A stretch of 55,449 bases of DNA from assembly GCA_029776205.1 (NCBI GenBank), contig JAKOTQ010000108.1:1-55449 (forward strand). Direction: 5' to 3'. Under the pieces are notes generated by a model that worked only from the letters and a program-made list of their open reading frames with translations, was not told the DNA's origin and did no database searches. Below are positions 15,185 to 54,652 of the stretch, one piece after another. Position numbers and translations under genes: made by a program. The DNA is from Bacillota bacterium (GTDB taxonomy: Bacteria; Bacillota; UBA4882; UBA8346). Each line of letters starts with the position of its first letter. Position 1 is the stretch's first letter.

Positions 15185-15204
15185 AATTTAGATGCTGGGT
15201 ATGG

Positions 15205-15358: not shown

Positions 15359-15376
15359 ATCTATCAAGTGATGAAG

Positions 15377-16789: not shown

Positions 16790-16872
16790 GTCAAGCTCCG
16801 TAAGTGATGAGTGTCGCCCCATGCAGTCTGAGGTTCCAAGATGGGAAGGTGATGAGGATTATTTGAACAGGA

Positions 16873-17947: not shown

Positions 17948-17975
17948 TCAAAATTATAGTAAAAAATAATCAATG

Positions 17976-18001
17976 AAAGGAGGAGATACTTCTCCTCCTT
18001 T
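17976..18001 (+). terminator. Perfect hairpin between PL10 and GH105
   Basis: AAAGGAGGAGA (17976-17986) and its exact complement TCTCCTCCTTT (17991-18001) with loop TACT. The arms are the consensus Shine-Dalgarno and anti-Shine-Dalgarno sequences. There is no T-run after it, so it could be a weak terminator, a processing or stability hairpin, or a translational control element before GH105 (ATG 18043). Confidence 0.6.
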
Positions 18002-18042
18002 CCAACTTCTATTATGAAAACTGATTCGGGGAGAGGAATTGG

Positions 18043-19149
18043 ATGCAATCGAAAATATCACCATTAGCAATGGCCGTTAAAACAGTTGATTCCGTCATGC
18101 AGCGTCATCCGGTGTTGATGGAGAATTGGCACTATGAAGTTGGGGTTATGCTCAAAGCAGTGGAATTCGTTTGGAAGAAAACCGGTAATCAGGCATATTT
18201 CGATTATCTCAAGAAAAATGTGGACTATTTTGTGGAGGATAATGGGAATATCCGTACGTATACGGTGACCGAGTTTAATTTGGATCAAATCAATACCGGT
18301 AAAGCCGTATTAACGGTTTTTCGCGAAACCGGTGAAGTAAAATACAAAAAAGCTGCGGATACTTTGCGGGAACAATTGAAAAAACATCCCCGAACCAGTG
18401 AGGGAGGTTTTTGGCATAAGCAAATTTATCCTTCACAAATGTGGTTAGACGGCATTTATATGCAGGCGCCTTTTTATGCGGAATATGCCAGCCTTTTTAA
18501 TGAACCGAAGGCTTATCAAGATATTGCCAATCAATTTGAGTTGTTATTTAAACATGCCAGGGATCCAAAAACCGGCTTGCTCTATCATGCTTGGAACGAA
18601 GATAAAGCCCAACAATGGGCCAATCCTGAAACCGGTTGTTCGCCGCATTTTTGGGGACGGGCCATGGGTTGGTATATGATGGCGTTAGTCGATACCCTAG
18701 ATTTCATTCCGGTTTCTGCTGAACGGGATCGCTTAATCGATATTTTACAGCAGTTGACCAAAGCGGTATTAGGTGTTCAGGATCGCCAGAACGGTTTGTG
18801 GTATCAGGTATTGGATCGGGGCGGCGATCCGGGGAACTATGTGGAAGCATCGGCTTCTTCCATGTTTGTTTATGCATTGCTCAAAGGGTTGAACCGTGGT
18901 TATCTGGATGAATCGATGCGTGAAGCGGTCCAGCGGGGTTATAACGGTATTATGGAACATTTCGTTGAAATCGGAGCGGATGGCCATGTGCATTTAAACG
19001 GCATTTGCAGTATGGCCGGTTTGGGAAAATATAAAGAAAATATGGAATATCGGGATGGCTCCTATGAGTATTATATTAGCGAGCCGGTGGTCGCTGATGA
19101 TTATAAAGGCGTTGGCCCGTTCATCATGGCTTGCACCGAATGTAAATAA
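18043..19149 (+). CDS. Glycoside hydrolase family 105 (unsaturated uronyl hydrolase)
   Basis: A 368-residue (alpha/alpha)6-barrel enzyme like YteR/YesR, which removes the unsaturated uronic acid left by pectate and rhamnogalacturonan lyases. MWLDGIYMQAPFYAEY carries the catalytic Asp136; HAWNED, WGRAMGWYMMALVD and the late SMAGLG region are family blocks. There is no signal peptide, so it is cytoplasmic. It would act on the products of the PL10 lyase encoded just upstream. GAGAGGA precedes ATG 18043. Confidence 0.93.
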   Translation: MQSKISPLAMAVKTVDSVMQRHPVLMENWHYEVGVMLKAVEFVWKKTGNQAYFDYLKKNVDYFVEDNGNIRTYTVTEFNLDQINTGKAVLTVFRETGEVKYKKAADTLREQLKKHPRTSEGGFWHKQIYPSQMWLDGIYMQAPFYAEYASLFNEPKAYQDIANQFELLFKHARDPKTGLLYHAWNEDKAQQWANPETGCSPHFWGRAMGWYMMALVDTLDFIPVSAERDRLIDILQQLTKAVLGVQDRQNGLWYQVLDRGGDPGNYVEASASSMFVYALLKGLNRGYLDESMREAVQRGYNGIMEHFVEIGADGHVHLNGICSMAGLGKYKENMEYRDGSYEYYISEPVVADDYKGVGPFIMACTECK

Positions 19150-26735: not shown

Positions 26736-26767
26736 ATAATAACAATAATCTTTTTCCATATCTTAAC

Positions 26768-26992
26768 GCGATGACGGGGATCGGGTTCTGATGATGTATC
26801 CAGAGAGGGCAGAGATGGTGTAAACTGCCTTGCAGATTCAGAAACTATTGCACCCCGGAGTGATTGAATGAATGCAGTAATTCAATTCGGTTCAGCCCGT
26901 TACCGCTGATTTGAGGGAGGCCTAAGGGCCTAATCAGAGTGGAACCGCGAAGAACCTTCGTCTCTGGAGTATGAGATGAGGGTTTTTGTTTT
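26768..26992 (+). promoter_or_regulatory. T-box riboswitch (Cys) controlling cysS
   Basis: The basal stem I pairs CGGGG (26775-26779) with CCCCG (26853-26857). The specifier TGC (26849-26851, Cys) comes just before the 3' strand and is followed by A, as expected. The distal AGAGAGGG loop of stem I is at 26802. The T-box motif AGAGTGGAACCGCG is at 26936-26949; the common form is AGGGTGGNACCGCG, so one base differs. The attenuator is AACCTTCGTCTC (26953-26964) with GAGATGAGGGTT (26973-26984) and a T-run. Uncharged tRNA-Cys would favour read-through into cysS. Confidence 0.93.
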
Positions 26993-37574: not shown

Positions 37575-37979
37575 AATGTAATGAATAATTATAAGCTTTG
37601 ATTTATCAGGGCTTTTTTATTTTAAATTTATTAGGGCTTTTTTTATTTTGTCGATAATTTGATGAATTTCCCGATTTCACCTCGAAAAGTGATAATTTTG
37701 TCATTTTTAGATACATCAATCTCGGAGTATGATAAAATAAAATAAGAAGAGGGCCAAAATTTCGTGCTGCTTTGAAATGCATGTAAATTTTATGGAAAGA
37801 TTGCATCCTTTTTTTGTTAAAAATGTAAAACAAGATAAAGAGGAAAGTTTTTTTATGTTGAATTGTGTTAAAATAAGTTATATTTTACAGATGATTTAAA
37901 GAAATTGCAGCATTAACCAAATTTTTCCAATAATTTCCTATTCAATCTAAACGGGAATGGGAAACAGGAGGCAGATCAA
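37575..37979. other. AT-rich 405-base leader before the polysaccharide operon
   Basis: It holds two near-repeats AGGGCTTTTTTATTTT (about 37608) and AGGGCTTTTTTTATTTT (about 37634), which with AAGC at 37593 may form a weak terminator for sigH. Possible -10 boxes are TATGAT (37728) and TATATT (37879), but no -35 is at a proper distance. I looked for c-di-GMP riboswitch consensus elements and found none. Confidence 0.5.
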
Positions 37980-38759
37980 GTGACTCGAAAAGCGGCGGCG
38001 ATACTCCTTGTATTTTGTCTGATTTTATCTTTCGGCATGGCAACATGGGCGAAAGATAAAACAGTTTACGTTGAATATTCGAAAGAAGAGGGAAAGGACG
38101 ATTATTATCCTAAAGTTGGTTTTGATTGGCGGATTAACTATTATTGGGGATTTGCTGCCAACCACCAATTTGAGGTTGGCGGAGACAGTGAAGCAAAAAC
38201 CTATATGGAAGTCAGGCGTTTATTTATTGACCAGCAACTTGCTTTGATTTTCAACGGTGAGACGTCCGAATCCTACGATTCATTCGGCATCAAGGTGAAT
38301 GCCTATTTCCCCCTGAATGATTTGGTATCCTACAACTGGGCTCTTATATACAATACTTATTTCGGTAAGCGGCACAACAATCCTTATGCTTTGGATTATC
38401 ATGCATTAAAAGCATTCGGCGAATTGCGGTACAAAATAAATAACAGGTTGACGGCGTTGATTAACGGCGAATGGCGAATGTATCAATATGATATCAAGGA
38501 TGCAACAAATACTGATCCGGATTATTCGGAAATGCAAGTATCCACCGGGTTGGGTTGTCAGATCAAAGAAAACTTTTATATCGAAGGAGTATATAATTGG
38601 ACAGATACGCGGTATGATGATCCCGGGATAAACAAAAAGTTTGGGAATGGCTTCATTTTCAACGGAAATTATGCGTATAAAAAACGTACATTTTATGTGA
38701 AATATCCGTTTTCCCAAAATGATCGGACTTCGGTGGTAGGTGTGTCATATACATTTTGA
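37980..38759 (+). CDS. Putative outer-membrane beta-barrel protein
   Basis: A 259-residue protein with a Sec signal peptide (residues 1-24, MATWAKD). The mature part is made of short alternating, aromatic-rich segments separated by Asn/Asp-rich turns (VGFDWRINYYWGFAAN, YNWALIYNTYFGKR, FIEGVYNWTDTRY-like strands) with no hydrophobic helices. It ends in TSVVGVSYTF: a terminal Phe with alternating hydrophobic residues, the outer-membrane beta-signal. About 10-12 strands would fit. The GTG start has AGGAGG 8 bases upstream. It is first in the operon, 30 bases before gtrA, so it may be the exit pore for the polymer or an unrelated porin. No sequence family is recognised. Confidence 0.6.
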   Translation: MTRKAAAILLVFCLILSFGMATWAKDKTVYVEYSKEEGKDDYYPKVGFDWRINYYWGFAANHQFEVGGDSEAKTYMEVRRLFIDQQLALIFNGETSESYDSFGIKVNAYFPLNDLVSYNWALIYNTYFGKRHNNPYALDYHALKAFGELRYKINNRLTALINGEWRMYQYDIKDATNTDPDYSEMQVSTGLGCQIKENFYIEGVYNWTDTRYDDPGINKKFGNGFIFNGNYAYKKRTFYVKYPFSQNDRTSVVGVSYTF

Positions 38760-38789: not shown

Positions 38790-39230
38790 ATGGAAAGCCG
38801 GAAACGGGCCGGGATCAACCCGGCCGATATACGAAAGATCTTTTATTATCTGGTTTTTGGGGTTCTCACCACGGTGTTAAGCATTTTAACTTACAGTATA
38901 TTGGTCTGGTTAAATATTCATTATATGGTCAGTAATGTCCTGGCTTTCGTCGTGGCGGTGAGTTTTGCGTACATAACCAATAGACGATGGGTTTTCAAGA
39001 CGGGAGAACCCGATAAAGTGGATGTGATGGAATTTTTGCGATTTATTGCTTCCAGAATTTCCACATTGATTTTTGAAAGTATCATTCTGTTCATCTTTAT
39101 AACCCTGTTGGAATTCAATCCATACGTGGTGAAGGTGATCGCCAATATGATCGTGATTTTCTCCAATTACTTTTTAAGCGAATTTATCGTGTTTAAAAAG
39201 GAAGTAACTACCACCATAAAAGAGGTATAA
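38790..39230 (+). CDS. GtrA family membrane protein
   Basis: A 146-residue protein with four hydrophobic helices and the GtrA signature (FYYLVFGVLTTVLSILTYSILVW, AYITNRRWVF). GtrA-type proteins are thought to flip undecaprenyl-phosphate-linked sugars across the cytoplasmic membrane. It stands 3 bases from the next gene. A GtrB-like partner is encoded at the far end of the operon (53684). Confidence 0.9.
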   Translation: MESRKRAGINPADIRKIFYYLVFGVLTTVLSILTYSILVWLNIHYMVSNVLAFVVAVSFAYITNRRWVFKTGEPDKVDVMEFLRFIASRISTLIFESIILFIFITLLEFNPYVVKVIANMIVIFSNYFLSEFIVFKKEVTTTIKEV

Positions 39231-39233
39231 CCT

Positions 39234-40673
39234 GTGTCTGGATTTACAAGACCGTCTATCGTTGCCGTATTGATACTGATACTCATATCCGGATATGCCT
39301 TGTTTGTGCCTCCGTTATTAGGTTTGGCTGATAACGGCGATTTCGGCCGAATTATGCTGCCCAACGGGTTGCGTCATGAGAGAGAACGCAACCCTAACGA
39401 TTATTTTGGTTACTTCAATTATAAATATGACAAGCTCCAGTATTATAACGAAGTTAAGCCGGACAAATCCACCCACAGCCTGATTATCAAGGCGGCTATA
39501 GCCTTGGATGATTTGTTCACCAGGGACAATAAATTTGATATTCGTTTCTTGGCTGTGATAAATCTGGCGGTTTTGGCGTTGGCTATGTATTGGCTGGTGG
39601 AAGTCGCCGGAAGAATGCTTGATAATACGGTATTTAAGTATGTTATTGGCCTGGCGGCCGTCGTTATATTCGGTGATATCGGTTATACGGTATATTTCAA
39701 CAGTTTTTTCGGAGAGAGTATCGCTTATACATTCTTTCTCTTGTCCGTCGCCGCCTTGCTCAGGTTTTCAGTGGATCAAGAGGTAAAACTGAAATATATT
39801 CTCATCTTCCTATTTTCCAGCATGATTTTTATCGGCGCGAAAAACCAGTATTCGTTGAACGGAGTTTTGTGTTTCTTTATTCTCCTTTCCGTTTTGATAC
39901 TGAAGATCTCTAATTGGAAAAAGTTAGCCGCCGTAGTTTTGGGATGCGGTATAATCCTTTTTTCAGTCTGGATGTACCGGGTTATCGATGAAAATATTTA
40001 CCTTATTAACAAATATCATTCCATTACCCGCGGTGTATTGGTGTTTGAGCCGAAAGCCCAGGATATTACCAAAAAGATCGGACTTGACGAGCAATTTGCT
40101 TTACTGGCGGGAACCATCTATTTCGATAAAACACCGGCGATCAATCCCAAACATGAACTGTTGTTGGATAACTTTTATCCCAGATATAACGTATTCTCCC
40201 TCGCTTTGTATTATCTGACGGATTCCAAGGCGTTTAAGAAAATCATGGAGTTTGGGCTGAAAAACAGTTTTGCCATACGTCCGGAGGTTTTGGGCAATTT
40301 CACCCGGGATTCGGGGAGAAAGTACGGCGAGAAAACGAAATTCTTTTCATTGTGGAGTTACATTAAGGAAAATCATGTCCCCAACTCTGCGCAATTCATC
40401 TTTTTCTTCCTTCTCGTCTGTTTCGGCATTACCATAATCAGAATCACGGGCTACCGGAAAGCCGGAGCGGCCCGACTGGCATATTACAGCGAGGTGGTCA
40501 TGCTCTATGTGGTGCTGACCGGGTTTTCCCAGGTATTGATCTCTTTTATCGGCGCAGGAGATACGGACTTGAAAAAGCATTTGTTCATGACCACCGTGAC
40601 CTGGGATATCTTGTTTTATTATAACTTCGCTTATCTTGCTTCGGTTATCTGGAAAAAGAAAATCAAGGTTTAA
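39234..40673 (+). CDS. Polytopic membrane protein, GT-C/WsfD-like hexose transferase candidate
   Basis: A 479-residue protein with about 9-10 hydrophobic helices (about 8-30, 100-118, 130-150, 155-200, 208-255, 395-475). The first outside loop carries LADNGDFGRIM; an acidic motif there is the hallmark of GT-C transferases that use lipid-linked sugars. Proteins of this look are annotated as WsfD-like hexose transferases. Sitting directly after gtrA (3 bases), it may be the transferase of a GtrA/GtrB three-component system. GTG 39234 is used, with AGAGGT upstream. Confidence 0.55.
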   Translation: MSGFTRPSIVAVLILILISGYALFVPPLLGLADNGDFGRIMLPNGLRHERERNPNDYFGYFNYKYDKLQYYNEVKPDKSTHSLIIKAAIALDDLFTRDNKFDIRFLAVINLAVLALAMYWLVEVAGRMLDNTVFKYVIGLAAVVIFGDIGYTVYFNSFFGESIAYTFFLLSVAALLRFSVDQEVKLKYILIFLFSSMIFIGAKNQYSLNGVLCFFILLSVLILKISNWKKLAAVVLGCGIILFSVWMYRVIDENIYLINKYHSITRGVLVFEPKAQDITKKIGLDEQFALLAGTIYFDKTPAINPKHELLLDNFYPRYNVFSLALYYLTDSKAFKKIMEFGLKNSFAIRPEVLGNFTRDSGRKYGEKTKFFSLWSYIKENHVPNSAQFIFFFLLVCFGITIIRITGYRKAGAARLAYYSEVVMLYVVLTGFSQVLISFIGAGDTDLKKHLFMTTVTWDILFYYNFAYLASVIWKKKIKV

Positions 40674-40703: not shown

Positions 40704-41570
40704 GTGGCAATGGTTAAGTTGGACAAGAGCATCTTAAAACGCATCGATCTGGTCAACATTTTCATCATAACCATGTTCTTCGGCTTGATTATGGTGTTCT
40801 CCTATCTGAAACTGGATGCGAATCCGGGAAGCATTTTTCTGGTGTTCCTGGTCATGGTCGGGACGATCGTGGGGTATTATACCAATATTACCGCATCCCT
40901 TCTTTATTCCATCATGTTTGTCTTTTTGTATGCCAGTTTTCAGATTTACCTGAATGTTGCAAAACGGGTTCCCATTGGCGGCGACGTCTATTTCTGGATG
41001 TTGGCCGTTCCTTTATTTACGATTATGTTCGCTTACTATGGGACGCTCATTCGGGACCTCCAGGAAAAGAACAGCAGTTTGATGAAGGAAAATGAAGAGC
41101 TGGTGATGATCGACAAAGATACCGGCTTGTTAAGCTCCCAGGCTTTCTTCAAAGAACTGCAGGTTTATATGAAAATCAATGAACGATTCAATATCGATCT
41201 TTATTTGATGCTGATCAAAGTGAAATATGAGAACGAAGTCATTCGAATCCTCGGTGAGTCAAAGTATAACAAAATGGTGAACGAAATCTCCAAGGTCATC
41301 AGTTCCATGCTTCGGGAAGAAGACCGCAAACTGATATTGAGAGATGCGAATATGTTCGCCGTGATTCTGCTCTCGAATAAAGGCGGTGCCAAGAGCATTA
41401 AGGAGCGATTGAAAGGTCAGATTCAGAACATTGACTTCAAGGATGATGCGGTCATTAACAATTTAAACTTGGAAGTTATGGTGGGTGTCGCTCAGTATCA
41501 TTCGGAAGAAAAATGCAGTCCTTATGAATTTTTCAAGAAGGCTGAAAGAGATCTGGAGTATGATGTGTAA
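40704..41570 (+). CDS. Membrane-bound degenerate GGDEF protein (YdaK/PssE-like)
   Basis: A 288-residue protein: four N-terminal hydrophobic helices (residues 13-115), a short coiled segment (116-133) and a GGDEF-fold domain (about 134-288) beginning with IDKDTGLLSSQAFF, the usual D-x-LTGL-x-NR-x-F block. The catalytic GGDEF is replaced by DANMF (LRDANMFAVILL), so it cannot make c-di-GMP. An RxxD-like REED lies upstream, but one residue further away than a classical I-site. YdaK (Bacillus) and PssE (Listeria) have this architecture and bind c-di-GMP to switch on polysaccharide synthesis; the same role is inferred. Its stop abuts the next ATG. Confidence 0.8.
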   Translation: MAMVKLDKSILKRIDLVNIFIITMFFGLIMVFSYLKLDANPGSIFLVFLVMVGTIVGYYTNITASLLYSIMFVFLYASFQIYLNVAKRVPIGGDVYFWMLAVPLFTIMFAYYGTLIRDLQEKNSSLMKENEELVMIDKDTGLLSSQAFFKELQVYMKINERFNIDLYLMLIKVKYENEVIRILGESKYNKMVNEISKVISSMLREEDRKLILRDANMFAVILLSNKGGAKSIKERLKGQIQNIDFKDDAVINNLNLEVMVGVAQYHSEEKCSPYEFFKKAERDLEYDV

Positions 41571-42860
41571 ATGATTTCATCAAAACGTGGTGCGGTTATT
41601 CGAATGATGATTTTGGCGGTCATGTTTTTGGCTTCGAATAACATGGATGCGGAAGCATCAGCCTTTACGAAAAATGAGAGCTATGTATTGTTATATGACC
41701 GTTTATACGATTACGCTTCAAATAGCAGCGATGTGCTCCGGCAATATATTGAGCTTAAGGCCTACGGGGCGGATGTGGTATTGCTCCGGGCCGAGCGATC
41801 GGATGTTGAAATAACGGATAAAAAGACCCGAATCATTTCATTTCCCTCCAGTTTTGAATCGGCTGAAAAGTATCAACAGGCTTTACAAACGTTCAAAGGT
41901 TATAAAGTCACGCCGTTTAACGGGAAGAGTATTTTACCCGCCAAAAAGGGAAAAAACAAGGGGTTATTCCTCGCAGTTTCTGAAGTTTATCCGTTTTCGG
42001 ATCTGAATAAATTGATGGATCTGGCTGAAAGGCTGCATAGCAAAGGGATCGGATTCATTGTATCGATTATGCCGGTATATGACAATTATCAGTTTGAAGC
42101 ATTTCAAAAATTTGTGGATGTATTGAAGTATGTCGGGAAAAAGGGAGGAAGAATATTTATCCATTTCCCGGTTGTGAACTATGAAGGGACATATAATCTG
42201 GATCCGACGGCTTTGTTTGAGAAAGCGCTGCAAGAATATAGGAACCGCGGCTTAGAGATCTTAGGCATTACGTTACCGCAAAATAAGATGTTGAACGACT
42301 TGAGAGTCTATGACGGGTTGGGGTTGCCGTTCATTCTGGTTACGGAAGCGGACGGGAAGATCAGCGCCGATTTGGACCTGTTCAAGGTTTCCCGGGCACT
42401 CAATGACTTTATCGTCATTAAGGGTACTTATATTGATAATTTTGACTTTTTCGGATACCGGGGAAAAAATTTCTACGACGGGGAACAGGCCGTTATGGTA
42501 ACGGCTCAGGGGAAAGAAGACAGGTTATTCCATCTGCTAAGCGTATTGGAAGATGAACGGGTTCCGGTCTGGCAGTTCAGAGTGAGCGATTATCGCCAAA
42601 GGCTGCGGAATCTCGGTTTCGACAAGCATGTCGGGATATTTGAAGAGCAGGAAAAGTCGCAACATGAAAAATTCCTGGAAGAAGAGATGCGAAAGATCCG
42701 GGGCGAAAACCTGGAAGGGGAAAAGTTCGTCCAAGGCTATGATATTTCCACATTTTCGGCTGTTGTCGTAAAAATGGCAGTGTTTCTTTTGGGCATATTC
42801 TCCGTTATGGTCATGATCTCCAGGCGCTTTAATTTACGCAAGTTCTTTAAGGATCAGTGA
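41571..42860 (+). CDS. DUF2334/YdaL-like protein, probably inactive deacetylase
   Basis: A 429-residue exported protein: signal peptide (1-28), a polysaccharide-deacetylase-like region (about 120-290, LFLAVSEVYPFSDLNKLMDLAERLHSKGIGFIVSIMPVY) and a C-terminal membrane anchor (about 398-420). Family members normally have an Asp-rich metal site (DVSP-like) and two His at the second motif. Here the first is SEVYPF, and the second (RIFIHFPVVNYEG) keeps only one His. It therefore probably binds polymer without deacetylating it. It matches ydaL by order: degenerate GGDEF, then this, then GT2. Confidence 0.7.
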   Translation: MISSKRGAVIRMMILAVMFLASNNMDAEASAFTKNESYVLLYDRLYDYASNSSDVLRQYIELKAYGADVVLLRAERSDVEITDKKTRIISFPSSFESAEKYQQALQTFKGYKVTPFNGKSILPAKKGKNKGLFLAVSEVYPFSDLNKLMDLAERLHSKGIGFIVSIMPVYDNYQFEAFQKFVDVLKYVGKKGGRIFIHFPVVNYEGTYNLDPTALFEKALQEYRNRGLEILGITLPQNKMLNDLRVYDGLGLPFILVTEADGKISADLDLFKVSRALNDFIVIKGTYIDNFDFFGYRGKNFYDGEQAVMVTAQGKEDRLFHLLSVLEDERVPVWQFRVSDYRQRLRNLGFDKHVGIFEEQEKSQHEKFLEEEMRKIRGENLEGEKFVQGYDISTFSAVVVKMAVFLLGIFSVMVMISRRFNLRKFFKDQ

Positions 42861-42872
42861 GGAGTGACATTT

Positions 42873-44132
42873 TTGTTACAAAACATCTATGACTACCTGT
42901 TGCTGTGGTCGCTGTTTTCCATATGGCTTGTTATGCTCATCAATAACGTGCTGGTCACCGGCGGATTTATCTGCTACCTGAAACATACCGGAAAAAACAA
43001 ACCTGTGGTGCCTGAGGAGGATTTACCCTTTGTTTCCGTATTGATTCCCGCGCATAACGAAGCGAAAGTTATCGGGAAAACCGTGGAAGCGATATTAGAC
43101 GCGGATTACGCCAAAGACAAATACGAAATTATCGTGATCAATGATAATTCAAGCGACAATTCCGCGGAAATCCTGGAAAGAATCAAGGCGAACCATCCGG
43201 GAAGGATGCTCACCATTATCAATACCGATAACATTATCGGAGGTAAAGGCAAATCCAATGCCTTAAATATCGGTCTGGCCCAGAGCAAAGGGTCGTTCAT
43301 TGCGATTTATGATGCGGATAACACTCCGGAGAAAAGCGCCCTGCGGGAACTGGTTTATGCGATTATGAATGATCCGAAAGCGGGGGCGGTCATCGGCAAA
43401 TTCCGTTGCCGTAACAGAAACAGAAATCTCCTGACCCGGTTTATCAATATCGAAGGCATATATTTTCAGTGGATGGCCCAGGCGGGCCGTTGGCAGCTGA
43501 TGAAGCTGTGTACGATTCCGGGGACCAATTTCATTATCCGCAGGAGTATCCTCGATGAGTTGGGCGGTTGGGATACCCAAGCCATTACCGAGGATACGGA
43601 AATCAGTTTCCGAATATACCGGTTAGGGTATCATATCCGGTTTTGTCCCTATTCCGCATCCTGGGAGCAGGAGCCGGAAACTCTGGCCGTTTGGTTCAAA
43701 CAGCGTAAACGATGGGTCAAAGGCAATTATTATGTGTTGATCAAAAATTTCAAGTATTTGTTTGATCCCGATGCCGGCCCTGTAAGATTCGACCTTATTT
43801 ATTATTCGGCTGTGTATGTCCTGTTTTTATCGTCGTCGGTCATTTCAGACCTCATTTTCATCCTCGGATTTGGGGGATTTATCCAGACGACGATTCTGGG
43901 GTACAGCTTGTTGTTGTGGGTCATGGCTTACCTGTTGTTCCTGCTCTCTGTATTCATCGCCTTAAGTACAGAAAAAGGCGAGCTCAGGTTGTCCAGGGTA
44001 TTTACTGCGATGATCATGTACTTTACCTATTGTAAACTCTGGTCCATCATTACTGTGGTTGGATTGGCCAGTTATACTGCAGATTTTATTTTAAAAAGAA
44101 AAATAACATGGTACAAGACTGAAAGGTTTTAG
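42873..44132 (+). CDS. Processive GT2 polysaccharide synthase (YdaM/PssC-like)
   Basis: A 419-residue family 2 glycosyltransferase in the cytoplasmic membrane. One N-terminal helix is followed by the GT-A domain: VSVLIPAHNEAKVI, nucleotide-binding INDNSSD, metal-binding DADN, acceptor TED and QRKRW (the QxxRW of processive synthases); three or four C-terminal helices follow. It should polymerise a beta-linked glycan and push it through the membrane with the BcsB-like partner encoded next. AGGAG is 8 bases before TTG 42873; GTG 42864 would overlap the site but is possible. Confidence 0.9.
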   Translation: MLQNIYDYLLLWSLFSIWLVMLINNVLVTGGFICYLKHTGKNKPVVPEEDLPFVSVLIPAHNEAKVIGKTVEAILDADYAKDKYEIIVINDNSSDNSAEILERIKANHPGRMLTIINTDNIIGGKGKSNALNIGLAQSKGSFIAIYDADNTPEKSALRELVYAIMNDPKAGAVIGKFRCRNRNRNLLTRFINIEGIYFQWMAQAGRWQLMKLCTIPGTNFIIRRSILDELGGWDTQAITEDTEISFRIYRLGYHIRFCPYSASWEQEPETLAVWFKQRKRWVKGNYYVLIKNFKYLFDPDAGPVRFDLIYYSAVYVLFLSSSVISDLIFILGFGGFIQTTILGYSLLLWVMAYLLFLLSVFIALSTEKGELRLSRVFTAMIMYFTYCKLWSIITVVGLASYTADFILKRKITWYKTERF

Positions 44133-44139: not shown

Positions 44140-46476
44140 ATGATGAGGAATCTGAAGAAATTGATGTTGATTATGTTAATGATGGGTTTGGCGCTCAGTT
44201 TGGTTCCAATAAGCGCCGACGTAAGGGCTGCCAATATTCAGGAAACGGCGGCGCAACAGACGGAGCCCAATGAAGAACCCTGCGATTGCGATAATCCTGA
44301 GGCAGCGGAGAGTCAATCCGTAGCGGCGAAGAAGTCAGGTTCGGGCGCTAAAACTCAAGATTCTAAAACGCAGGACGCCAAAGGCCGGTCTAAGACCGAA
44401 CAGACTCAGAAGTCGTCCGTTACATTGACTCCCGGCGTCATCGACGAAACGAAACAAATTACCATTCGAAAACTGCCTAACGATCAACTGGAGTATACAT
44501 ACAGGGTGATTAATGACATTGAGCTGCGAGGGATTAACGGGGAGAGCTCATGGTATTTCCTGGTTGAGAAAGGCATGAAAGCTACATATTTCAAATTCAA
44601 CTTGTATTGCCGGATGAACGAATTGATTAAACCGAATATTTCGTATTTTACCGTTTATATGAACGATCTCCCCATCAAATCCATGAGGATTAAAGATGTC
44701 AACGGCACGTTGATGAATCAGTGGGAGATTGTCATTCCCACCAGGACCATTAATGTGGGTTATAACGAGTTAAAGGTCAGGTCCCATACGCGGATCACCG
44801 ATGAGCCCTGCGAAGATGATAAAAACATCGCCAACTGGGTGATCATCGACGGAAAAACCAATTATGTGGCTCATTTCAGAAAAGACGTGACTTCGGGGGG
44901 TATCTCCAATTTTACCAGGCCGTTTGTCAGCATGCATGCGGACGATGCGCCGGGAATCGGCGTGGTCATTCCCGATCAGCACAATGACAAAGAACTCTCC
45001 GCCGCGTTGACCTTGATTGCCCATATGAGATACAGTGGTTCGGCCTTTGAGGTGCCTTCTACGTTGATCAAAGCCGGCGATGTTCGGGTAGCCGATTTTG
45101 ACAGCCTGATTTATGTGGGCAATTATAAAAGCGTTCCCGAAGCGCTCAAAGGAGTCATCCGCACTCAGCCGAGCCTTTATACGGATACTGCCCACATTTA
45201 CAGGTCAACGCTGGATAAAGGCAGAAAGCCGGTGTTGATGATCGTTTCCGATAACGGAGATAGGCTGATGGAAGCCGTGAAATCCTTGAAAAACAGTGAT
45301 ATAAAAATCCAGATGAACCGGAAATATCAAAAGCTTAAACCCCATTTGGATACGACCATCAAGGAACAACGCGTCAGCGACTATATTTATCTGAAAGATC
45401 TGGGGATTAACGGCATCGAAGTCAAAGGGAGAAATCTGCAGGTTGCTACCATCGGTATCCGGATTCCTACCAACCAGATGCTGGCCAATGACGCAAAACT
45501 TGTCCTCAATGTGAGATACTCCGATAATCTGGATTTTGAAAAATCCTATGTGACGGTTTATATTAACGGTATTCCGTCAGGAAGCCACAGACTCGTCCGG
45601 GAATTGCGGAACCGCCATACCATGACTTTTTATGTTCCGGATGAATTGCGGCGTAAGACGTACTTTGATGTCAGGATAGTCTTTGAAATGATATCGGACG
45701 GCATTATCGATTGCAAACGAAACCTGGCCAGTACGCCGTGGGCATATATCATCGAAGATTCCTATTATTTCTTCCCGAAACAGGAGAGGTATCTTAAGCT
45801 CCTGAATAATCTGCCGTTCCCCTTCTCCAGAAATGACGATCTGGATCCGACAACCATCGTCATGCCCGACAATCCTACCAGGGACGACTATTGGATCGCC
45901 GGGAAAATTGCAGCACTGGCCGGGATCGGCGTGAAAAACAATGAAGGCGTTATTGATGCGGTAAAAGGCTCAAAACTGGGTTCGAAGAGTCAGGTTAACA
46001 ATTTGGTTATCTTCGGAACTCCGGGAGAAAACAGAGCCATCAAACAGGTCAACAGTTATTTGTGGTTCAAATACAATAAACAGTTTAACACCGTGCTGTC
46101 CAATGAAAAGATCGAATTGTTGCCGGAAACGGCAAAAACCGCGACTTTCATGGAGATTAAGACTTCTCCATACAATCATGAAAAAGGGATGATGACCATC
46201 ACGTCCCTGGATAAGAAGTCGTTGATGGACGCCCTCGTTTATTTGGAGAATGATCGGCGCGGATTTTTGACCGGGGATGCGGCGATCATCAGCAAAGACG
46301 GAGAACTGCAGAATTTCAGGTTCCAAAAGGATGAAGACATGCGGCCTGAAGTGAATAAACCGCGGCTCGCCAACAAGAATCTTTGGAATTTACTTAAATT
46401 CGCCGTAGCGTTGCTCTTGTTCTTAGGTATCGGCCTTGGTTTCTACCTGTATAAAAATAAAAGGAAAAAGGATTGA
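44140..46476 (+). CDS. BcsB-like synthase subunit (YdaN-like)
   Basis: A 778-residue exported protein with a signal peptide (1-30), a low-complexity Gln/Lys/Ser-rich linker (35-105), two repeats of jelly-roll plus alpha/beta modules (about 110-420 and 425-730; FTVYMNDLPIKSMRI and VTVYINGIPSGSHRL are matching strands) and a C-terminal membrane helix (748-770). BcsB anchors and activates the cellulose synthase outside the cytoplasmic membrane; here it should guide the polymer from the GT2 synthase encoded upstream (8 bases). GGGGGA stands before ATG 44140/44143. Confidence 0.85.
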   Translation: MMRNLKKLMLIMLMMGLALSLVPISADVRAANIQETAAQQTEPNEEPCDCDNPEAAESQSVAAKKSGSGAKTQDSKTQDAKGRSKTEQTQKSSVTLTPGVIDETKQITIRKLPNDQLEYTYRVINDIELRGINGESSWYFLVEKGMKATYFKFNLYCRMNELIKPNISYFTVYMNDLPIKSMRIKDVNGTLMNQWEIVIPTRTINVGYNELKVRSHTRITDEPCEDDKNIANWVIIDGKTNYVAHFRKDVTSGGISNFTRPFVSMHADDAPGIGVVIPDQHNDKELSAALTLIAHMRYSGSAFEVPSTLIKAGDVRVADFDSLIYVGNYKSVPEALKGVIRTQPSLYTDTAHIYRSTLDKGRKPVLMIVSDNGDRLMEAVKSLKNSDIKIQMNRKYQKLKPHLDTTIKEQRVSDYIYLKDLGINGIEVKGRNLQVATIGIRIPTNQMLANDAKLVLNVRYSDNLDFEKSYVTVYINGIPSGSHRLVRELRNRHTMTFYVPDELRRKTYFDVRIVFEMISDGIIDCKRNLASTPWAYIIEDSYYFFPKQERYLKLLNNLPFPFSRNDDLDPTTIVMPDNPTRDDYWIAGKIAALAGIGVKNNEGVIDAVKGSKLGSKSQVNNLVIFGTPGENRAIKQVNSYLWFKYNKQFNTVLSNEKIELLPETAKTATFMEIKTSPYNHEKGMMTITSLDKKSLMDALVYLENDRRGFLTGDAAIISKDGELQNFRFQKDEDMRPEVNKPRLANKNLWNLLKFAVALLLFLGIGLGFYLYKNKRKKD

Positions 46477-46503: not shown

Positions 46504-47586
46504 ATGGGAAGAAAGTATGTAAAACATGTGCTGGTTATCTTCATTTTCCTGGTTATACCGGGTATTCTGGCGTATTATTGGATTTATGCCGATAAACCCA
46601 TAAAAGATATGGGAAGGACGGCGGTCGATTTCTCCGGGTACCATTGGGAGCGAACGGCGCTGGAAAGGTTTGTCGACAGACATTTTATCCAAGATGGTTT
46701 CGTCCGGACCAATTTGGTCGATACCGAACAGGGGGAACTTGCTTCAGGGGAGGATTTTTTATCCGAATCCGCCGGGCTTTTAATGTTATATTATCTGAAA
46801 CAGGATGATCGGGAAAAATTCGACAGGGAAGTTCATCTTTTGACGACCCATTTTTTCAATGGAAACCAGCTGTTTAAATGGAGGATTCGTCCCGGGGTCA
46901 ACCGGGAGACGGTCAATTCTACCGTCGATGACCTGCGAATTGTCAAAGCGTTGTTGCTGGCCGCCGAAAAATGGGGCAGGACGGATTACCGTGTGCTGGC
47001 AGCAAAACTCTCAGTCCGGCTGCTCAACCATTGCGTCACGGGAAATGCGCTTAGAGCTTATGACTCGCCGCACAGTCCCGAAGCGCCCTTCGTCTATTAC
47101 GATTTTGCAGCCATGCAGCGCATGGGAGAGTTTAACCGGAAGTGGTCGACGCTGGCGAAAGTGAATATGGAGAAGATATTACGGCGGCAGATTAAGGGAT
47201 TGCCTTTGTTTAAAGACGATTGGTTCGCAAAGGATAATGCATTTCCTACGGTGGAAAACCTGATGGTCTTGATGCACTTGTCCGAGGCCGGCGTCAAAGA
47301 CCCGGAGTCCCTCCAATGGTTGAAGGAACAACTGAAACGGAAAGGGCTGTTCGGGAAATACTCGATGAAAGGGAAGCCCTTAAACTCGGTGGAATCTCCG
47401 GCCATCTACGCCATTACGGCGATCATTGCCAAGCTGAACGGTGATGAAGAACTTTATGGTTTGGCTGCGGAACGGCTGAAAGGCATGCAGAATCTGGTTG
47501 ACGGAGAGTATTACGGTGGATTTATCGACTTGAAACAGCTTTCGGCGTTCTCTTTTGATCAGCTTTTGGCGTTGTTAGCCTATTAA
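46504..47586 (+). CDS. GH8-like hydrolase (YdaJ/PssZ-like)
   Basis: A 360-residue membrane-anchored protein (hydrophobic helix 9-28) with an (alpha/alpha)6 hydrolase domain. FLSESAGLLMLYYLK contains Glu88, in the position of the GH8 catalytic acid, and NSTVDDLRIVKALLLAAEKWG contains the Asp142/Asp143 pair. Bacillus YdaJ and Listeria PssZ are of this type; PssZ trims the cognate polymer. It follows the BcsB-like gene by 27 bases and closes the Yda/Pss-like core. Confidence 0.8.
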   Translation: MGRKYVKHVLVIFIFLVIPGILAYYWIYADKPIKDMGRTAVDFSGYHWERTALERFVDRHFIQDGFVRTNLVDTEQGELASGEDFLSESAGLLMLYYLKQDDREKFDREVHLLTTHFFNGNQLFKWRIRPGVNRETVNSTVDDLRIVKALLLAAEKWGRTDYRVLAAKLSVRLLNHCVTGNALRAYDSPHSPEAPFVYYDFAAMQRMGEFNRKWSTLAKVNMEKILRRQIKGLPLFKDDWFAKDNAFPTVENLMVLMHLSEAGVKDPESLQWLKEQLKRKGLFGKYSMKGKPLNSVESPAIYAITAIIAKLNGDEELYGLAAERLKGMQNLVDGEYYGGFIDLKQLSAFSFDQLLALLAY

Positions 47587-47604: not shown

Positions 47605-48729
47605 ATGAAGATGAGAATTGAAGCGCTTTCCGGACTTAAATTATCGCTGCGATTCCCTGGGAAACTTCTGGCCGGGTGCTTTATCCTGGCCATGGTTGCC
47701 GGTTCTTTCGCCCGGGATCCTTTGCATGCTGCCGGATGGTTTTCCCATAAGGCAAGGGATGAAGGGGCGCCCGTTTTATCGGCGGCCCATCAACATAAGG
47801 AACAATTGATGAAATATTTCAAGGAAATTTACGGGAAAAAGATTTTAAGCGGCCAACACGTTTCCAAGGGCTTTATGGAAGTGGAAGCCATCGATAAAGT
47901 GACCGGAAAAAAACCGGCCATTCTCGGACTGGATTTTATGGATTATTCTCCTTCCCGGGTGGAACGAGGGACCCGAGGGGATGCAACCGAAAGGGCCGTT
48001 CAATGGTGGCGCGAGGGCGGATTGGTTACGTTTTGCTGGCATTGGAATGCGCCCACGGGTTTGATTGACCGGGGCCCGGACCGATATTGGTATCAAGGGT
48101 ATTATACCAGGGCAACCACGTTTAATTTAGAGAAGGCGCTGCGGGATACCAAGTCCAAGGAATATCGGTTAGTGATTCGGGATATTGACGCCATCGCCGA
48201 GGAATTGAAGAAGCTCCGGGAAGAAGGGGCTCCGGTGCTGTGGCGGCCGTTGCATGAAGCCTCCGGGGGCTGGTTCTGGTGGGGCAGTAAAGGCCCAAAA
48301 CCTTATAAAAAATTGTGGCGGCTCATGTATGACCGGATGACGAACCATCACCGGCTGGATAACCTGATCTGGGTATGGAATGGCGAGGATGCCGACTGGT
48401 ATCCGGGAGATGACGTCGTGGATATCGTCGGAAGAGATTATTATGGAGAAAAGCGGGACTATTCGTCCAGAAAAGAAGAGTTCAGAAAGGTTCAACGTTA
48501 TGCCAGACGTAAAATGGTAGCCTTAACCGAAACCGGAGTCGTCCCCGATCCGGACCAACTGAAGAAAACGCGTACCCAATGGCTTTGGTTCATGGTATGG
48601 TCGGAAGGGTTCGTGCTGAATGGGGATGAATATTCCGAAGAATATACCGAAGCCAAGATGCTCAGGAAGGCATACCATCATGATTACGTGATTACCCGGG
48701 ATGAATTGCCCCGGTTCAATCGGGACTAA
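47605..48729 (+). CDS. Glycoside hydrolase family 26 (beta-mannanase-like)
   Basis: A 374-residue exported enzyme: signal peptide (to about residue 43, LHAAG) and a GH26 (beta/alpha)8 barrel. The acid/base is Glu218 in LWRPLHEASGGWFWWG and the nucleophile Glu309 in VALTETG. Known members cut beta-1,4-mannans. In this operon (19 bases after the GH8-like gene) it more likely acts on the exported polymer, which suggests beta-1,4-linked manno-configured residues (inference). Confidence 0.9.
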   Translation: MKMRIEALSGLKLSLRFPGKLLAGCFILAMVAGSFARDPLHAAGWFSHKARDEGAPVLSAAHQHKEQLMKYFKEIYGKKILSGQHVSKGFMEVEAIDKVTGKKPAILGLDFMDYSPSRVERGTRGDATERAVQWWREGGLVTFCWHWNAPTGLIDRGPDRYWYQGYYTRATTFNLEKALRDTKSKEYRLVIRDIDAIAEELKKLREEGAPVLWRPLHEASGGWFWWGSKGPKPYKKLWRLMYDRMTNHHRLDNLIWVWNGEDADWYPGDDVVDIVGRDYYGEKRDYSSRKEEFRKVQRYARRKMVALTETGVVPDPDQLKKTRTQWLWFMVWSEGFVLNGDEYSEEYTEAKMLRKAYHHDYVITRDELPRFNRD

Positions 48730-48771
48730 TGATTGATAATGCTGATCTTACATAGAAAAGTAGGGATTGCT

Positions 48772-51700
48772 ATGAAAAGAGGTTTCGCTTGGCTTTTTTT
48801 GTTCAGCATCGGTTTAATCCTTTGCTTCGCCCACTGGGCGGCGGCCCAATGGTTGCCGGATACCCGGGGCGACCTGTGGTATTATCAGGAAACCTTTTCC
48901 GATAAACGGCTTAAAAATAATCAAATTTTAGATAAAAACGGGAAAGTGGTCTGGCGGATCAATACGGCCGAATGGCAGACCAACGCCATCACGGACACCG
49001 GGGCGCTGGAACTGGGCGGTGCCCGCTATATGCAACGGGCTGTTCTGGCGGAGGATATCTGGGGGTACAAGCAGGATTATGCCATGGAATTCACACTTAA
49101 CCTTCAGAAGCTGGGCAATGAGGGCCATTCGGGACGGCCCATCGCCATCATTATCCCGCGGGCCAAAGATGCGCAATTTAATCAATTTTATGCGGTGACC
49201 TACTATATGGAAAATACCATATCGAATCTTTTCAAATTCAAGTGGGGCATCGTCAACACGGCGGCGCCGACGAAGATGAAACCGCTGGTGGAAGGGTATT
49301 ATTTGTTGCGGGAAGACGTGGACTATACCGGCCGGGTGGTTATCCGCAATACGCCGGAAGGGGATGTCCATATCCGTTTTTATATTGACGGGCCCATCAA
49401 TCCCGCGAAACAATATAAGCCGCTGCTGGAGTATATCGACTCCAGCCCGTATAAAATTACGGCCGGGGTGACCGGACCGGCATTCGGCATGGTGGGCTGG
49501 ACGGATGCCGCCTGGGGCCTGGCTCCCGTGGTCCGTTATGACAATATCCGCTTGTTCGAGCTCCGTCAGTTTGAAAAATATGAAGTGGAATTGAAGATAA
49601 ATGTGGAGAATAATCCGAAAGACATTGAAGGCGACGCGGAGTATGATACCGTCAAGTATGTGATCAACAAAGGGATCATGGCGGAATATTCTCCTAATGC
49701 CTTCAAGCCCCATGAAAACATTTCGGTGGGGGACTTTCTTAAAGCGCTGGTCATCCTCAAAGAGGGAAAATATCCTGCCGGAACGCCTGTTACAGTTGCC
49801 GATTTGATAAAACGCGGTATAGGGCTGGGACTCATCCGGGAAGGTGAGTTTTCCGATTATCGGCAGCCGATAACCCGTTATGACGCAGCGTTGTTGCTGG
49901 CCAGATTTTACGGCAATCCGGCGGGAGACAAGACATATTTGACGTTTATCAGGGATTGGGCGGTTATTCCCCAAGAATATCTGCAGGCGGTCCTGTATGC
50001 ATATTATGAAGGGTATTTGAGATTGGACGACAATCTGGAATTCAACGGGAATCTCCCGATAAGCCGGGCGGAGGCTGCCGCCGTATTCCTCAGGATGCTG
50101 GATGCCGGTTACCGGAAAATCAATTACGATTTGGAACTACCCAATATATTATCTAACGGTGCTGTCCTCCAGCGGAATAAGAAGGTCCCGATTTGGGGGA
50201 GGGGCGTAACCGGGGATACCATCACGGTACGTTTTAAAAATCAGGTGAAGACGACGGTGGTCAAAAACGGCCACTGGTACGTGGAACTTGATCCGATGCC
50301 CCATGGCGGTCCGTACACATTGAAAGTCAATAGTTCGAAAAAGAAGATTACCTTATATAACATTTGGGTCGGGGAAGTATTCGTTATCGCCGGTCAGTCC
50401 AACTCGGAGATGTTTTTGGCGGATTGCTACGGTGCCAGCGAAACCCGGAAAAAGTTTTATAACAGTACAAAGTTACGGTTCTATATGGGTGAAGTCATTA
50501 CGTCGACCCGGCCCAACTTTAACAGCCAAGGGAAATGGTACCGCGCAGAAGGCTGGGTGCTTGATGAATCACCGGCGATCGGTACGTTTTTTGTGGAAAA
50601 AATCCTTGAATTAAATAAAGAGTTGTCCCGTGTACCCATCGGCATGATCAAAATGTCGTACGGTGGCACGACAGTGGAAGCATTTATACCTTACGCCATT
50701 TTTCAAGAGAACAACTATGTTCAAAAGGATAATGAGGCCATTGTGTCGGGGTTCTGGAACGGTTACATGGAACCCGTAACGCCCTTTGCAGTCAAAGGAG
50801 TCATCTATTATCAGGGAGAGCAAAGCGCTCATCTGGGGTATAAGTATGAACCAAAGCTCAGGGATTATCTGCGGGGAATCCGAACCAAGTTTAAAGATCC
50901 CAATTTGCCGGTCATCCTGGTTCAGTTGGCCGGTTACGGGTATAACGATTTTCGGACCGACCTGAACGAGTGGCCGATCATCCGGGGCGTTCAGCAGAGG
51001 GTGGCCAATACGACTCCCAATACCGGGCTGGTGACTGCCGTGGACCTGGCGGACCCCGATCCCATCGAAATTCATCCCAGGGAGAAGAAGAAGGTCGGTG
51101 AACGGTTGGCCTATCGGGCCATGGAATTGTTTTACGGGAAGCCTTGCGAAAAAAGAAGCGCTGAACTGAGTTTTTGTAAACTTGAAGGGAATAAAGTCAT
51201 CACCGGCTTCGATTACGATTTCGGCCGGATTTACATTAAAAACAATAACATTGAAAACAGCTTCCAGATCCTTGACCGGCAGGGAATCTGGCAGGATGCC
51301 AAGGCCGTGGTGAACAGCGACAACCGTACGGTCACCATTTGGAATGACGATATTGCTGAGCCTTTGGGAGTACGGTATGCCTGGGTGAATTACCCCAATG
51401 TTTGCTTGTACAATGCCGTGGATCTTCCGGTCCTGCCGTTCCGCGTGCTTCTCGGCGAGCGGAATACCGGTGAAGCCATGCTGAAGATCTCCAACCATGA
51501 TTTAAAATCGTATGATGCTATCGTCAATACTACCCGGAGCCATCAGTTCCGGCTGGTCAATGTGATTGATCCGGACACGCTGGTCCATCAATACCCGATA
51601 AACGGACAAAGTGCCGGAGATATCATCGAAAAACTGTCCAAACTGGAAAGCGTGCGGGCCCAGGAAGGCACCACCGAAACCGTCATCAAGCTGACGCAGC

Positions 51701-51870
51701 ATGGGCTTTCCGTCGGGGACTGGATCCGAAATGACAGTAAGGGATGGGAAGCCCGCCGGGTCATCCGGGTGATCGATGAAAATACTTTTGTGGTCGATGC
51801 TGTCAAAGGGCAGAGCGCCGGCGATGAAATCGCCAAATTCCGATTGGTGGGAAAAGTTGTGGCGGAATGA
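48772..51870 (+). CDS. SLH-domain sialate O-acetylesterase-like surface protein
   Basis: A 1032-residue exported protein: signal peptide (1-27), a jelly-roll domain (about 30-275), three SLH repeats (about 285-460; YDTVKYVINKGIMAEYSPNAFKP, ITRYDAALLLARFYG, ISRAEAAAVFLRML), a short beta domain and a SASA esterase domain (about 530-790). The catalytic Ser is Ser543 in AGQSNSE, with His768 in EIHPREKK. Two tandem 60-residue repeats end the protein, each closing with GQSAGD. SLH domains bind pyruvylated wall polymer, so the esterase is held at the surface and may remove acetyl groups from the polymer. ATG 48772 is supported by TAGGGA and the signal peptide; TTG 48733 is not. Confidence 0.85.
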   Translation: MKRGFAWLFLFSIGLILCFAHWAAAQWLPDTRGDLWYYQETFSDKRLKNNQILDKNGKVVWRINTAEWQTNAITDTGALELGGARYMQRAVLAEDIWGYKQDYAMEFTLNLQKLGNEGHSGRPIAIIIPRAKDAQFNQFYAVTYYMENTISNLFKFKWGIVNTAAPTKMKPLVEGYYLLREDVDYTGRVVIRNTPEGDVHIRFYIDGPINPAKQYKPLLEYIDSSPYKITAGVTGPAFGMVGWTDAAWGLAPVVRYDNIRLFELRQFEKYEVELKINVENNPKDIEGDAEYDTVKYVINKGIMAEYSPNAFKPHENISVGDFLKALVILKEGKYPAGTPVTVADLIKRGIGLGLIREGEFSDYRQPITRYDAALLLARFYGNPAGDKTYLTFIRDWAVIPQEYLQAVLYAYYEGYLRLDDNLEFNGNLPISRAEAAAVFLRMLDAGYRKINYDLELPNILSNGAVLQRNKKVPIWGRGVTGDTITVRFKNQVKTTVVKNGHWYVELDPMPHGGPYTLKVNSSKKKITLYNIWVGEVFVIAGQSNSEMFLADCYGASETRKKFYNSTKLRFYMGEVITSTRPNFNSQGKWYRAEGWVLDESPAIGTFFVEKILELNKELSRVPIGMIKMSYGGTTVEAFIPYAIFQENNYVQKDNEAIVSGFWNGYMEPVTPFAVKGVIYYQGEQSAHLGYKYEPKLRDYLRGIRTKFKDPNLPVILVQLAGYGYNDFRTDLNEWPIIRGVQQRVANTTPNTGLVTAVDLADPDPIEIHPREKKKVGERLAYRAMELFYGKPCEKRSAELSFCKLEGNKVITGFDYDFGRIYIKNNNIENSFQILDRQGIWQDAKAVVNSDNRTVTIWNDDIAEPLGVRYAWVNYPNVCLYNAVDLPVLPFRVLLGERNTGEAMLKISNHDLKSYDAIVNTTRSHQFRLVNVIDPDTLVHQYPINGQSAGDIIEKLSKLESVRAQEGTTETVIKLTQHGLSVGDWIRNDSKGWEARRVIRVIDENTFVVDAVKGQSAGDEIAKFRLVGKVVAE

Positions 51871-51931: not shown

Positions 51932-53065
51932 GTGCGAAAAATACTGATTGTCTTCGGAACGCGTCCGGAAGCCATCAAAATGGCCCCGGTGGTTAAGGAA
52001 TTACAGAACCGGCCGGATATATTCGACGTGAAGGTCTGTGTGACCGCACAGCACCGTCAAATGCTGGATCAAGTGTTGAAAATATTTGATATTGTGCCGG
52101 ATTATGATTTAAATATCATGCAGCCGGGTCAGGATCTCAACGATGTTACGGCCCGGGTCGTCCTGGGTTTAAGGGATGTTTTGTCCGATTCCCGACCGGA
52201 TGTGGTGTTGGTTCATGGGGACACCACCACGTCGATGGCCGCCGCACTGGCCGCCTATTATCAGAAAATAGCCGTGGGCCACGTGGAAGCGGGATTAAGG
52301 ACCAACAATATATATTCGCCGTGGCCTGAGGAGATCAACCGGCAGCTTACGGCGAGAATTGCCCGGTACCATTTCGCTCCGACGGCCAATTCCCGCGTCA
52401 ATTTGCTGAAAGAGAATATTCCTGCCGAAAATATCGTAATTACCGGGAATACGGTCATCGATGCTTTATTGATGGTGAGTGAGCGCATCAAAAACGACAG
52501 GGAATTGGAAACGGCCCTCTGCAACAATTTGGAGAAATGCGGTTATAAGGTGACGGATCGCCGCTTCATTTTGGTGACCGGCCATCGTCGGGAAAATTTT
52601 GGGCAAGGGTTTTTAAACATTTGTCATGCACTGCAACAGATTGCCAAGGACAATCCAACGGTGGATATCGTTTATCCTGTGCATATGAATCCCAATGTAC
52701 GGGGGCCGGTGAATGAAATCTTAAACGGCATCGCCAATGTGTATCTCATTGAACCTTTGGAGTACCAGGAGTTTGTCTATCTGATGAGCCGCTGCTACTT
52801 GATTTTGACCGATAGCGGCGGCATTCAGGAAGAAGGCCCCAGCCTGGGCAAGCCGGTGCTGGTGATGCGGGATACGACAGAACGTCCTGAAGCGGTAGAA
52901 GCCGGTACCGTGAAACTGGTGGGGACCGATCCCGACAAAATCGTGAAAGAAAGCCAACTGCTCCTGGATTATTCCACGGCATACCTTGAAATGGCCCAAG
53001 CACATAACCCTTACGGCGACGGGAAAGCTGCCTTGCGGATCGCCCGATATTTACAGGAAAACTAA
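51932..53065 (+). CDS. wecB: UDP-N-acetylglucosamine 2-epimerase (non-hydrolysing)
   Basis: A 377-residue GT-B-fold enzyme interconverting UDP-GlcNAc and UDP-ManNAc. [38 protein letters not shown] with [17 protein letters not shown] and [28 protein letters not shown] are the family blocks, including the catalytic Asp/Glu/His. The GTG start at 51932 has GAGGT 7 bases upstream. It probably supplies UDP-ManNAc to the GT2 synthase of this operon; it could also feed wall teichoic-acid-type polymers. Confidence 0.95.
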
Positions 53066-53644: not shown

Positions 53645-53683
53645 TGTATTTAGTTGTTACATCCGGGAAGGGAGGAAAGCCGG

Positions 53684-54652
53684 TTGTCTAAATTATCCGT
53701 AATCGTTCCTTGTTATAATGAGGAAAAAGCCATACCCATTTTTTATAAGGAATTAATGAATGTCCTTCACCAACTGGACCATGAATTCGAAATTCTGTTT
53801 GTGAATGACGGTTCCCAAGACGGGACGCTGCAGGAACTCAAGGTATTGTCGGAGAGGGATCCCAATGTAAAATACCTTTCCTTTTCGCGCAATTTTGGCA
53901 AAGAAGCCGCTATGTTGGCGGGAATGCGCCATTCCACCGGGGATTTGGTCGTCATCATGGATGTGGACTTGCAGGATCCGCCGGCGCTTATCCCCCAAAT
54001 GATTGAGGCGATTGAGAAAGAAAACTATGACTCTGTGGCGACCCGGAGAGTGACGCGCAAAGGGGAACCTTTTTTGCGGAGCCTGTTTGCCAGAATGTTT
54101 TATAAAATTATCAATAAAATGTCCAATACGGATATTGTGGACGGCGCTCGTGATTTCCGGATGATGACCCGGCAAATGGTCAACTCCATCCTGGAGATCA
54201 ATGAATATCACCGTTTCTCCAAAGGGATTTTCGGATGGGTAGGCTATAATACGAAATGGCTGGAGTATGAGAATATTGAAAGAGTGGCCGGGAAAACCAA
54301 GTGGTCCTTTTGGAAATTGTTTAAATATGCGATCGACGGAATCGTGGCTTTTTCTACGGTGCCGTTGCGTATGGCATCCCTTTTCGGAGTCCTCTTTTCC
54401 TTTGTGGCCTTCGCCATGCTCATTTTTGTCGTGGTGCGCAGGTTGCTGTTCGGCGATCCGGTAGCCGGTTGGGCGTCCCAGGTATGTATCATTTTGTTCA
54501 CCGGCGGCCTGCAAATGATTTTCCTGGGGATTATCGGGGAGTACCTGTCCAGAACCTATATGGAGGTAAAGGCCAGGCCGCAATATTTTATTAAGGAAAA
54601 GAAGCTCCATGGGCCTGGGAATATACTTGGGATATCGGAGCAGAAAAATTAG
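53684..54652 (+). CDS. GtrB/DPM1-type polyprenyl-phosphate glycosyltransferase
   Basis: A 322-residue GT2 enzyme: LSVIVPCYNEEKAI, FVNDGSQDGT, FSRNFGKEAAMLAG, DVDLQDPP and YHRFSKGIFGWVGY, then two C-terminal helices (about 228-250 and 263-290) and YLSRTYMEVKARPQYFIKE. This is the GtrB/CsbB pattern: transfer of a hexose to undecaprenyl phosphate. It pairs functionally with the GtrA-like protein (38790) and the GT-C candidate (39234). The start is TTG 53684, with GGGAGG 8 bases upstream. No terminator follows before the tRNA promoter. Confidence 0.9.
   Translation: MSKLSVIVPCYNEEKAIPIFYKELMNVLHQLDHEFEILFVNDGSQDGTLQELKVLSERDPNVKYLSFSRNFGKEAAMLAGMRHSTGDLVVIMDVDLQDPPALIPQMIEAIEKENYDSVATRRVTRKGEPFLRSLFARMFYKIINKMSNTDIVDGARDFRMMTRQMVNSILEINEYHRFSKGIFGWVGYNTKWLEYENIERVAGKTKWSFWKLFKYAIDGIVAFSTVPLRMASLFGVLFSFVAFAMLIFVVVRRLLFGDPVAGWASQVCIILFTGGLQMIFLGIIGEYLSRTYMEVKARPQYFIKEKKLHGPGNILGISEQKN

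Follow-up and report, generated by a model that had tools for sequence, protein, structure and literature searches.

How would a polysaccharide made by an inner-membrane synthase leave a bacterium of the Bacillota that is enclosed by a second membrane? Synthase-dependent polysaccharide exit ports are known from Proteobacteria, and our literature searches found none described in diderm Bacillota. The question is raised by a stretch of DNA from a Bacillota bacterium, 55,449 nucleotides long and analysed as a whole (hereafter the window), in which a predicted outer-membrane β-barrel protein is encoded ahead of a polysaccharide synthase operon. A first-pass annotation had taken this protein as a sign of an outer membrane in a spore former and as a candidate exit pore.

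The barrel gene and its product

The open reading frame at 37980–38759 (forward strand, as are all features below for which a strand was recorded) encodes 259 amino acids and begins with a GTG codon, 8 nt downstream of a Shine-Dalgarno sequence read directly from the DNA (AGGAGG, 37966–37971). It is set apart from the preceding sigH gene by a terminator-like hairpin (37593–37614) and a 405-base AT-rich intergenic leader (37575–37979, 27% GC), in which an Rfam scan found neither a c-di-GMP riboswitch nor any other element. The next gene, at 38790, begins 30 bases past the stop codon, and the barrel gene thus stands at the head of the synthase operon, as the first-pass annotation had placed it. 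Elsewhere in the window, a T-box leader (Rfam RF00230, 102.9 bits) occupies 26762–26968, upstream of a gene at 27071.

The N-terminus of the protein, MTRKAAAILLVFCLILSFGMATWA, resembles a signal peptide (residues 1–24, 37980–38051, with the cut likely after ATWA), and the AlphaFold2 model described below has a helix at residues 3–23 followed by strands. Beyond it there is no segment hydrophobic enough for a transmembrane helix, and the mature protein is rich in Tyr (11%), Phe (7%), Asn (8.5%) and Asp (7%). On the Kyte-Doolittle scale, hydropathy alternates with a two-residue period more strongly than in 300 of 300 shuffles (z 2.7), to be compared with a z of 2.1 for the BamA barrel of the source genome and of −3.0 to 0.8 for six soluble or secreted controls; the octanol scale gives a weak signal (z 0.7). 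The protein ends in GVSYTF (38739–38756), the type of last-strand signal that BamA recognises. The signal peptide, the amphipathic all-β body free of further hydrophobic helices and the aromatic end, all noticed at first reading, are confirmed by the sequence and the alternation test, and together they are the features expected of BamA-dependent outer-membrane proteins.

A single homologue was found, in the metagenome-assembled genome Firmicutes bacterium UBA3943, which belongs to the same class and to another family. It is 38% identical over the whole length, keeps the last six residues unchanged, and has sub-threshold Pfam matches to OMP_b-brl (1.5e-5) and TonB-barrel (1.7e-5). Because this homologue is colinear and full length, a frameshift or chance-ORF artefact was rejected. 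Scanning contigs with the single protein yielded no homologue, and the alignment-based scan, which relied on narrow peptide patterns and is therefore non-exhaustive, returned UBA3943 alone; matches in other genomes (E 0.003–1) were weak, confined for the most part to the signal peptide or to short segments, and were left out of the count. The family is accordingly rare, with two known members. Searches of NCBIfam, PHROGs and plasmid sequences gave no match, the Pfam match to DUF3187 fell below the cut-off (E 0.067), and sequence searches of the PDB found nothing, homology to OmpG included.

The predicted fold comes from a shallow alignment. AlphaFold2 produced no usable model from the single sequence (pLDDT 35), and from a two-row alignment one of five models was good (pLDDT 66.5, pTM 0.58), the other four being poor. 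The good model has 14 strands between residues 26 and 258 and no plug domain. A Foldseek search of the PDB placed OmpG first (E 1.3e-7, TM-score 0.65 over the full OmpG length, 278 alignment columns against 277 residues), followed by DcaP, KdgM, PgaA, PelBC, general porins and BcsC; a viral fold library again returned barrels, more weakly. In the strands, 58 of the 83 residues on one face are aromatic or aliphatic, a split that the choice of side itself favours, and the other face is polar with balanced charge (10 positive, 10 negative); the connecting loops are rich in Asp and Asn. The model matches solved closed barrels, but the strand number is 14, not the 10–12 foreseen in the earlier expectation of a closed barrel. 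Although confidence in the model is moderate, a barrel explains the data on the fold far better than any alternative. The poor models and the failure of the single-sequence prediction would be compatible with a secreted, soluble, β-rich protein whose 14-strand model is an artefact of the shallow alignment; we consider this very improbable, given a hydropathy alternation like that of BamA's own barrel, the conserved end and barrel-type Pfam matches of the homologue, and the predominance of outer-membrane barrels among the best PDB fold matches.

The nearest folds bring in the chief rival to an export function. Uptake porins are common among small barrels, and the predicted protein resembles OmpG in size, modelled 14-strand topology and overall fold, with OmpG and KdgM-type small porins as its closest structural neighbours. 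It could thus admit to the periplasm oligosaccharides released by the GH8, GH26 and SASA esterase proteins of the operon or by the pectinases of the window, where genes for polygalacturonase-like and pectate lyase proteins occupy 13703–17947. The entire pectin-degradation stretch (13703–19149) comprises the polygalacturonase-like gene, the pectate lyase (TIGR02474, above cut-off) and a weak β-galactosidase-like gene. However, identity to OmpG and KdgM-type porins is 9–16% and seen in the fold alignments only, the sequence searches of the PDB having given no match, and the gene accompanies a synthase rather than catabolic genes. In addition, the annotated operon genes include no sugar transporter, the operon of the UBA3943 homologue combines a synthase with a deacetylase-like protein and wecB and has no recognised sugar-uptake gene, and GH8-type proteins accompany synthases in operons that lack a barrel as well. 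An uptake porin is therefore unlikely in our judgement.

The synthase operon and its relatives

Behind the barrel gene lie genes for a GtrA-type small membrane protein of lipid-linked sugar flipping (38790–39230; PF04138, E 1e-24) and a WsfD-type hexose transferase (39234–40673; NF051875, 411 bits against a cut-off of 80). They are followed by a YdaK/PssE-like membrane protein, recognised by domains and alignment, with a degenerate GGDEF domain and an intact I-site RxxD (REED; 40704–41570), a YdaL-like DUF2334 protein assigned by domain content (41571–42860), a YdaM/PssC-like GT2 polysaccharide synthase with every motif of a processive enzyme (YDAD, TED, QRKRW; 42864–44132) and a YdaN/PssD-like, BcsB-like membrane-anchored protein (44140–46476; PF03170, E 1.5e-46). 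The remaining products are a YdaJ-like GH8-family protein, again assigned by domain content (46504–47586), a secreted GH26 glycosyl hydrolase (47605–48729; PF02156, E 1.7e-81), an SLH-domain protein in which a domain search finds a SASA carbohydrate esterase domain (48733–51870), the UDP-GlcNAc 2-epimerase WecB, which makes UDP-ManNAc (51932–53065), and a PgfS-like GT2 that falls below the equivalog cut-off and is a candidate source of lipid-linked hexose for WsfD and GtrA (53654–54652). The SLH/SASA protein might act on the polymer, modifying it in the wall or on the cell surface.

The gene content is that of a predicted YdaJKLMN/Pss-type, c-di-GMP-gated exopolysaccharide operon, the gene-by-gene correspondence to yda being drawn from domain content rather than from alignment of the B. 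subtilis proteins; YdaJ is GH8-like and YdaL DUF2334-like. In the B. subtilis ydaJKLMN set, YdaK is a degenerate GGDEF protein and I-site c-di-GMP receptor (PMC5422440), as is PssE in the Listeria pssA-E set (PMC4125290). In the window protein, RxxD lies five residues before the degenerate active site, a layout like that of YdaK (PMC5422440), and it is kept in 12 of 12 aligned orthologues. The GH8, degenerate GGDEF, DUF2334, GT2 and BcsB-like genes are thus shared with B. subtilis and Listeria, whereas these hosts have no outer membrane and the window operon adds the head barrel, GtrA, GH26, the SLH esterase and wecB. The Listeria polymer is β-1,4-ManNAc with galactose, as cited in PMC5422440; wecB and WsfD would fit a similar product here, perhaps one based on ManNAc.

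In UBA3943 the barrel gene stands directly before a GT2 synthase operon of a different type, which encodes a membrane protein, the GT2, a bactofilin-like protein, a deacetylase-like protein, a 304-aa protein and a WecB homologous to that of the window. The gene for the bactofilin-like protein is at L056:12852–13937. Because the homologue heads an unrelated synthase operon, the proposed role as an exit pore gains independent support.

The composition of the operon also bears on the idea that the barrel retains or arranges the polymer on the cell surface, in the manner of Wzi or a lectin, while the polymer leaves through another pore such as an OmpM porin or a barrel that escaped annotation. The small size of the barrel and its Asp/Asn-rich loops would suit such a function, and the SLH esterase suggests handling of a surface polymer; Wzi, which belongs to capsule loci, is a barrel with 18 strands and a plug (PMC9603273). 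The modelled protein, however, has no plug, and the operon behind the barrel encodes no other candidate exit pore. We regard this organiser function as distinctly unlikely.

The outer membrane and the distribution of the barrel

The source genome (2.73 Mb, 99.4% complete) encodes the machinery of an outer membrane. BamA (an Omp85 protein with three POTRA domains), TamB, two OmpH/Skp proteins, LptA, LptC, LptF/G and LpxD are encoded on one contig within about 25 kb. The bamA homologue and TamB, for which the first-pass annotation had advised a search, are thus both present and on the same contig; for lptD, also among its targets, no match to the LptD domain PF04453 was found in this genome. Between LptF/G and LptC lies a 720-aa protein (L008:3919–6084, contig C35) that has weak LptC/LptD_N-like matches without PF04453; it may be a divergent LptD and could fill that role. 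The genome also encodes a type Vd-like fusion of a patatin phospholipase with an Omp85 barrel (L010:16305–18509, contig C76). SigH and YlbJ, encoded in the window, score above curated cut-offs, and SpoIVA is encoded elsewhere in the genome. The outer-membrane genes and these sporulation genes together make a diderm spore-former well supported at the level of gene content, in agreement with the initial suggestion. Negativicutes, Limnochordia and Halanaerobiales are diderm Firmicutes (PMC10628300), and since diderm spore-forming Bacillota are already known, this part is not new; the source genome shares with them BamA, TamB, OmpH, Lpt and LpxD alongside sporulation genes, and apart from the missing PF04453 match no difference was seen.

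In a sample of 398 genomes of the phylum, the BcsB protein was matched in 20, the source genome included. None of the other 19 has an Omp85 protein (19/19), and no barrel gene was found beside the operon among the 211 ORFs of the 19 BcsB loci that were fetched; a filter for signal peptides and aromatic ends passed two of these ORFs, a GH8 protein and a broken piece of BcsB. Several of these loci end at contig ends and two, in genomes G353 and G160, are of a different synthase type, so that absence of the barrel is best shown for the complete Yda-type loci. Within the class, Omp85 is present in all nine genomes tested, BcsB in one of 29 (the source genome only), the barrel in two of 29, and a GT2 synthase (E ≤ 1e-30) in exactly those two; if the two traits were independent, such an overlap would arise by chance with a probability of 1/C(29,2), or 1/406. 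As these two genomes carry two operon types, the barrel tracks an outer membrane combined with a processive synthase, not the type of operon.

The same data bear on the view that the barrel, though an outer-membrane protein, has nothing to do with the polymer and that its gene merely happens to lie between sigH and the operon. Its GC content (40% against 46% for most of the window) and the rarity of its family would allow this. Against it, the two of 29 genomes that have the barrel are also the two that have the synthase, the barrel gene heads unrelated synthase operons in members of two different families, and the gap to the next gene is 30 bases; we hold a chance neighbour to be very improbable.

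In a tree of GT2 sequences, that of the window clusters with those of two Omp85-less genomes of one family (f25; support 100/99), which would tentatively fit acquisition of the operon from a lineage without Omp85. The direction of transfer is tentative, given the midpoint rooting and the long branch of the window sequence.

A proposed route across the outer membrane

On the basis of these data, the best explanation of the barrel is an outer-membrane exit port for the exopolysaccharide of the operon, to which we give a probability of about 0.6; the sequence and the model speak for a barrel-like protein, for BamA in the genome, for the make-up of the operon, for the intact I-site and for the joint occurrence of barrel and synthase in the class, and we infer an outer-membrane location, an open pore, the polymer as substrate and its transport. 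The protein would be exported by Sec and inserted by the cell's own BamA. Binding of c-di-GMP to the I-site of the degenerate GGDEF protein would switch on the GT2 synthase, which would polymerise and extrude the chain; the BcsB-like protein would receive it on the outer side of the inner membrane, WsfD and GtrA may add hexose branches, and the barrel would pass it across the outer membrane. A lineage-specific barrel would thus have been added to a YdaJKLMN/Pss-type core that elsewhere in the survey occurs only in genomes without Omp85.

The exit ports BcsC, PgaA, AlgE and PelB provide the precedent, each being an outer-membrane barrel whose gene accompanies that of a processive GT2 synthase, and PgaA, PelBC and BcsC recur among the fold matches of the model. 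BcsC has 16 strands and AlgE 18, and both BcsC and PgaA carry periplasmic TPR scaffolds. PgaA has 16 strands (PMC9603273). The window barrel differs in its 14 predicted strands against 16–18, in its short length, in its diderm Bacillota host and in the absence of a TPR scaffold and of detectable sequence kinship to these ports. By sequence it is not a member of the BcsC, PgaA or AlgE families; it may nevertheless work like them. Its size, smaller than that of the known synthase-dependent ports, and the missing scaffold count against an exit port, as does the presence of GH8, GH26 and esterase genes in the operon.

A more specific proposal falls slightly short of an even chance: that a new family of small, TPR-free barrels serves as a dedicated exit port in diderm Bacillota, and that one was set before a Pss/Yda-type operon whose donor had no outer membrane, so that the operon became a two-membrane system. 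Should the barrel prove to be the exit port, a single added gene would let such an operon work across two membranes, and the lower size limit for these ports would be one 14-strand barrel with no TPR scaffold. Since some operons have the barrel and others lack it, comparing them allows the exit-port idea to be tested directly. In genome G306 the BcsB gene is split into two ORFs (L043:8621–11030), so the operon there is probably disabled, unless the split is a sequencing error.
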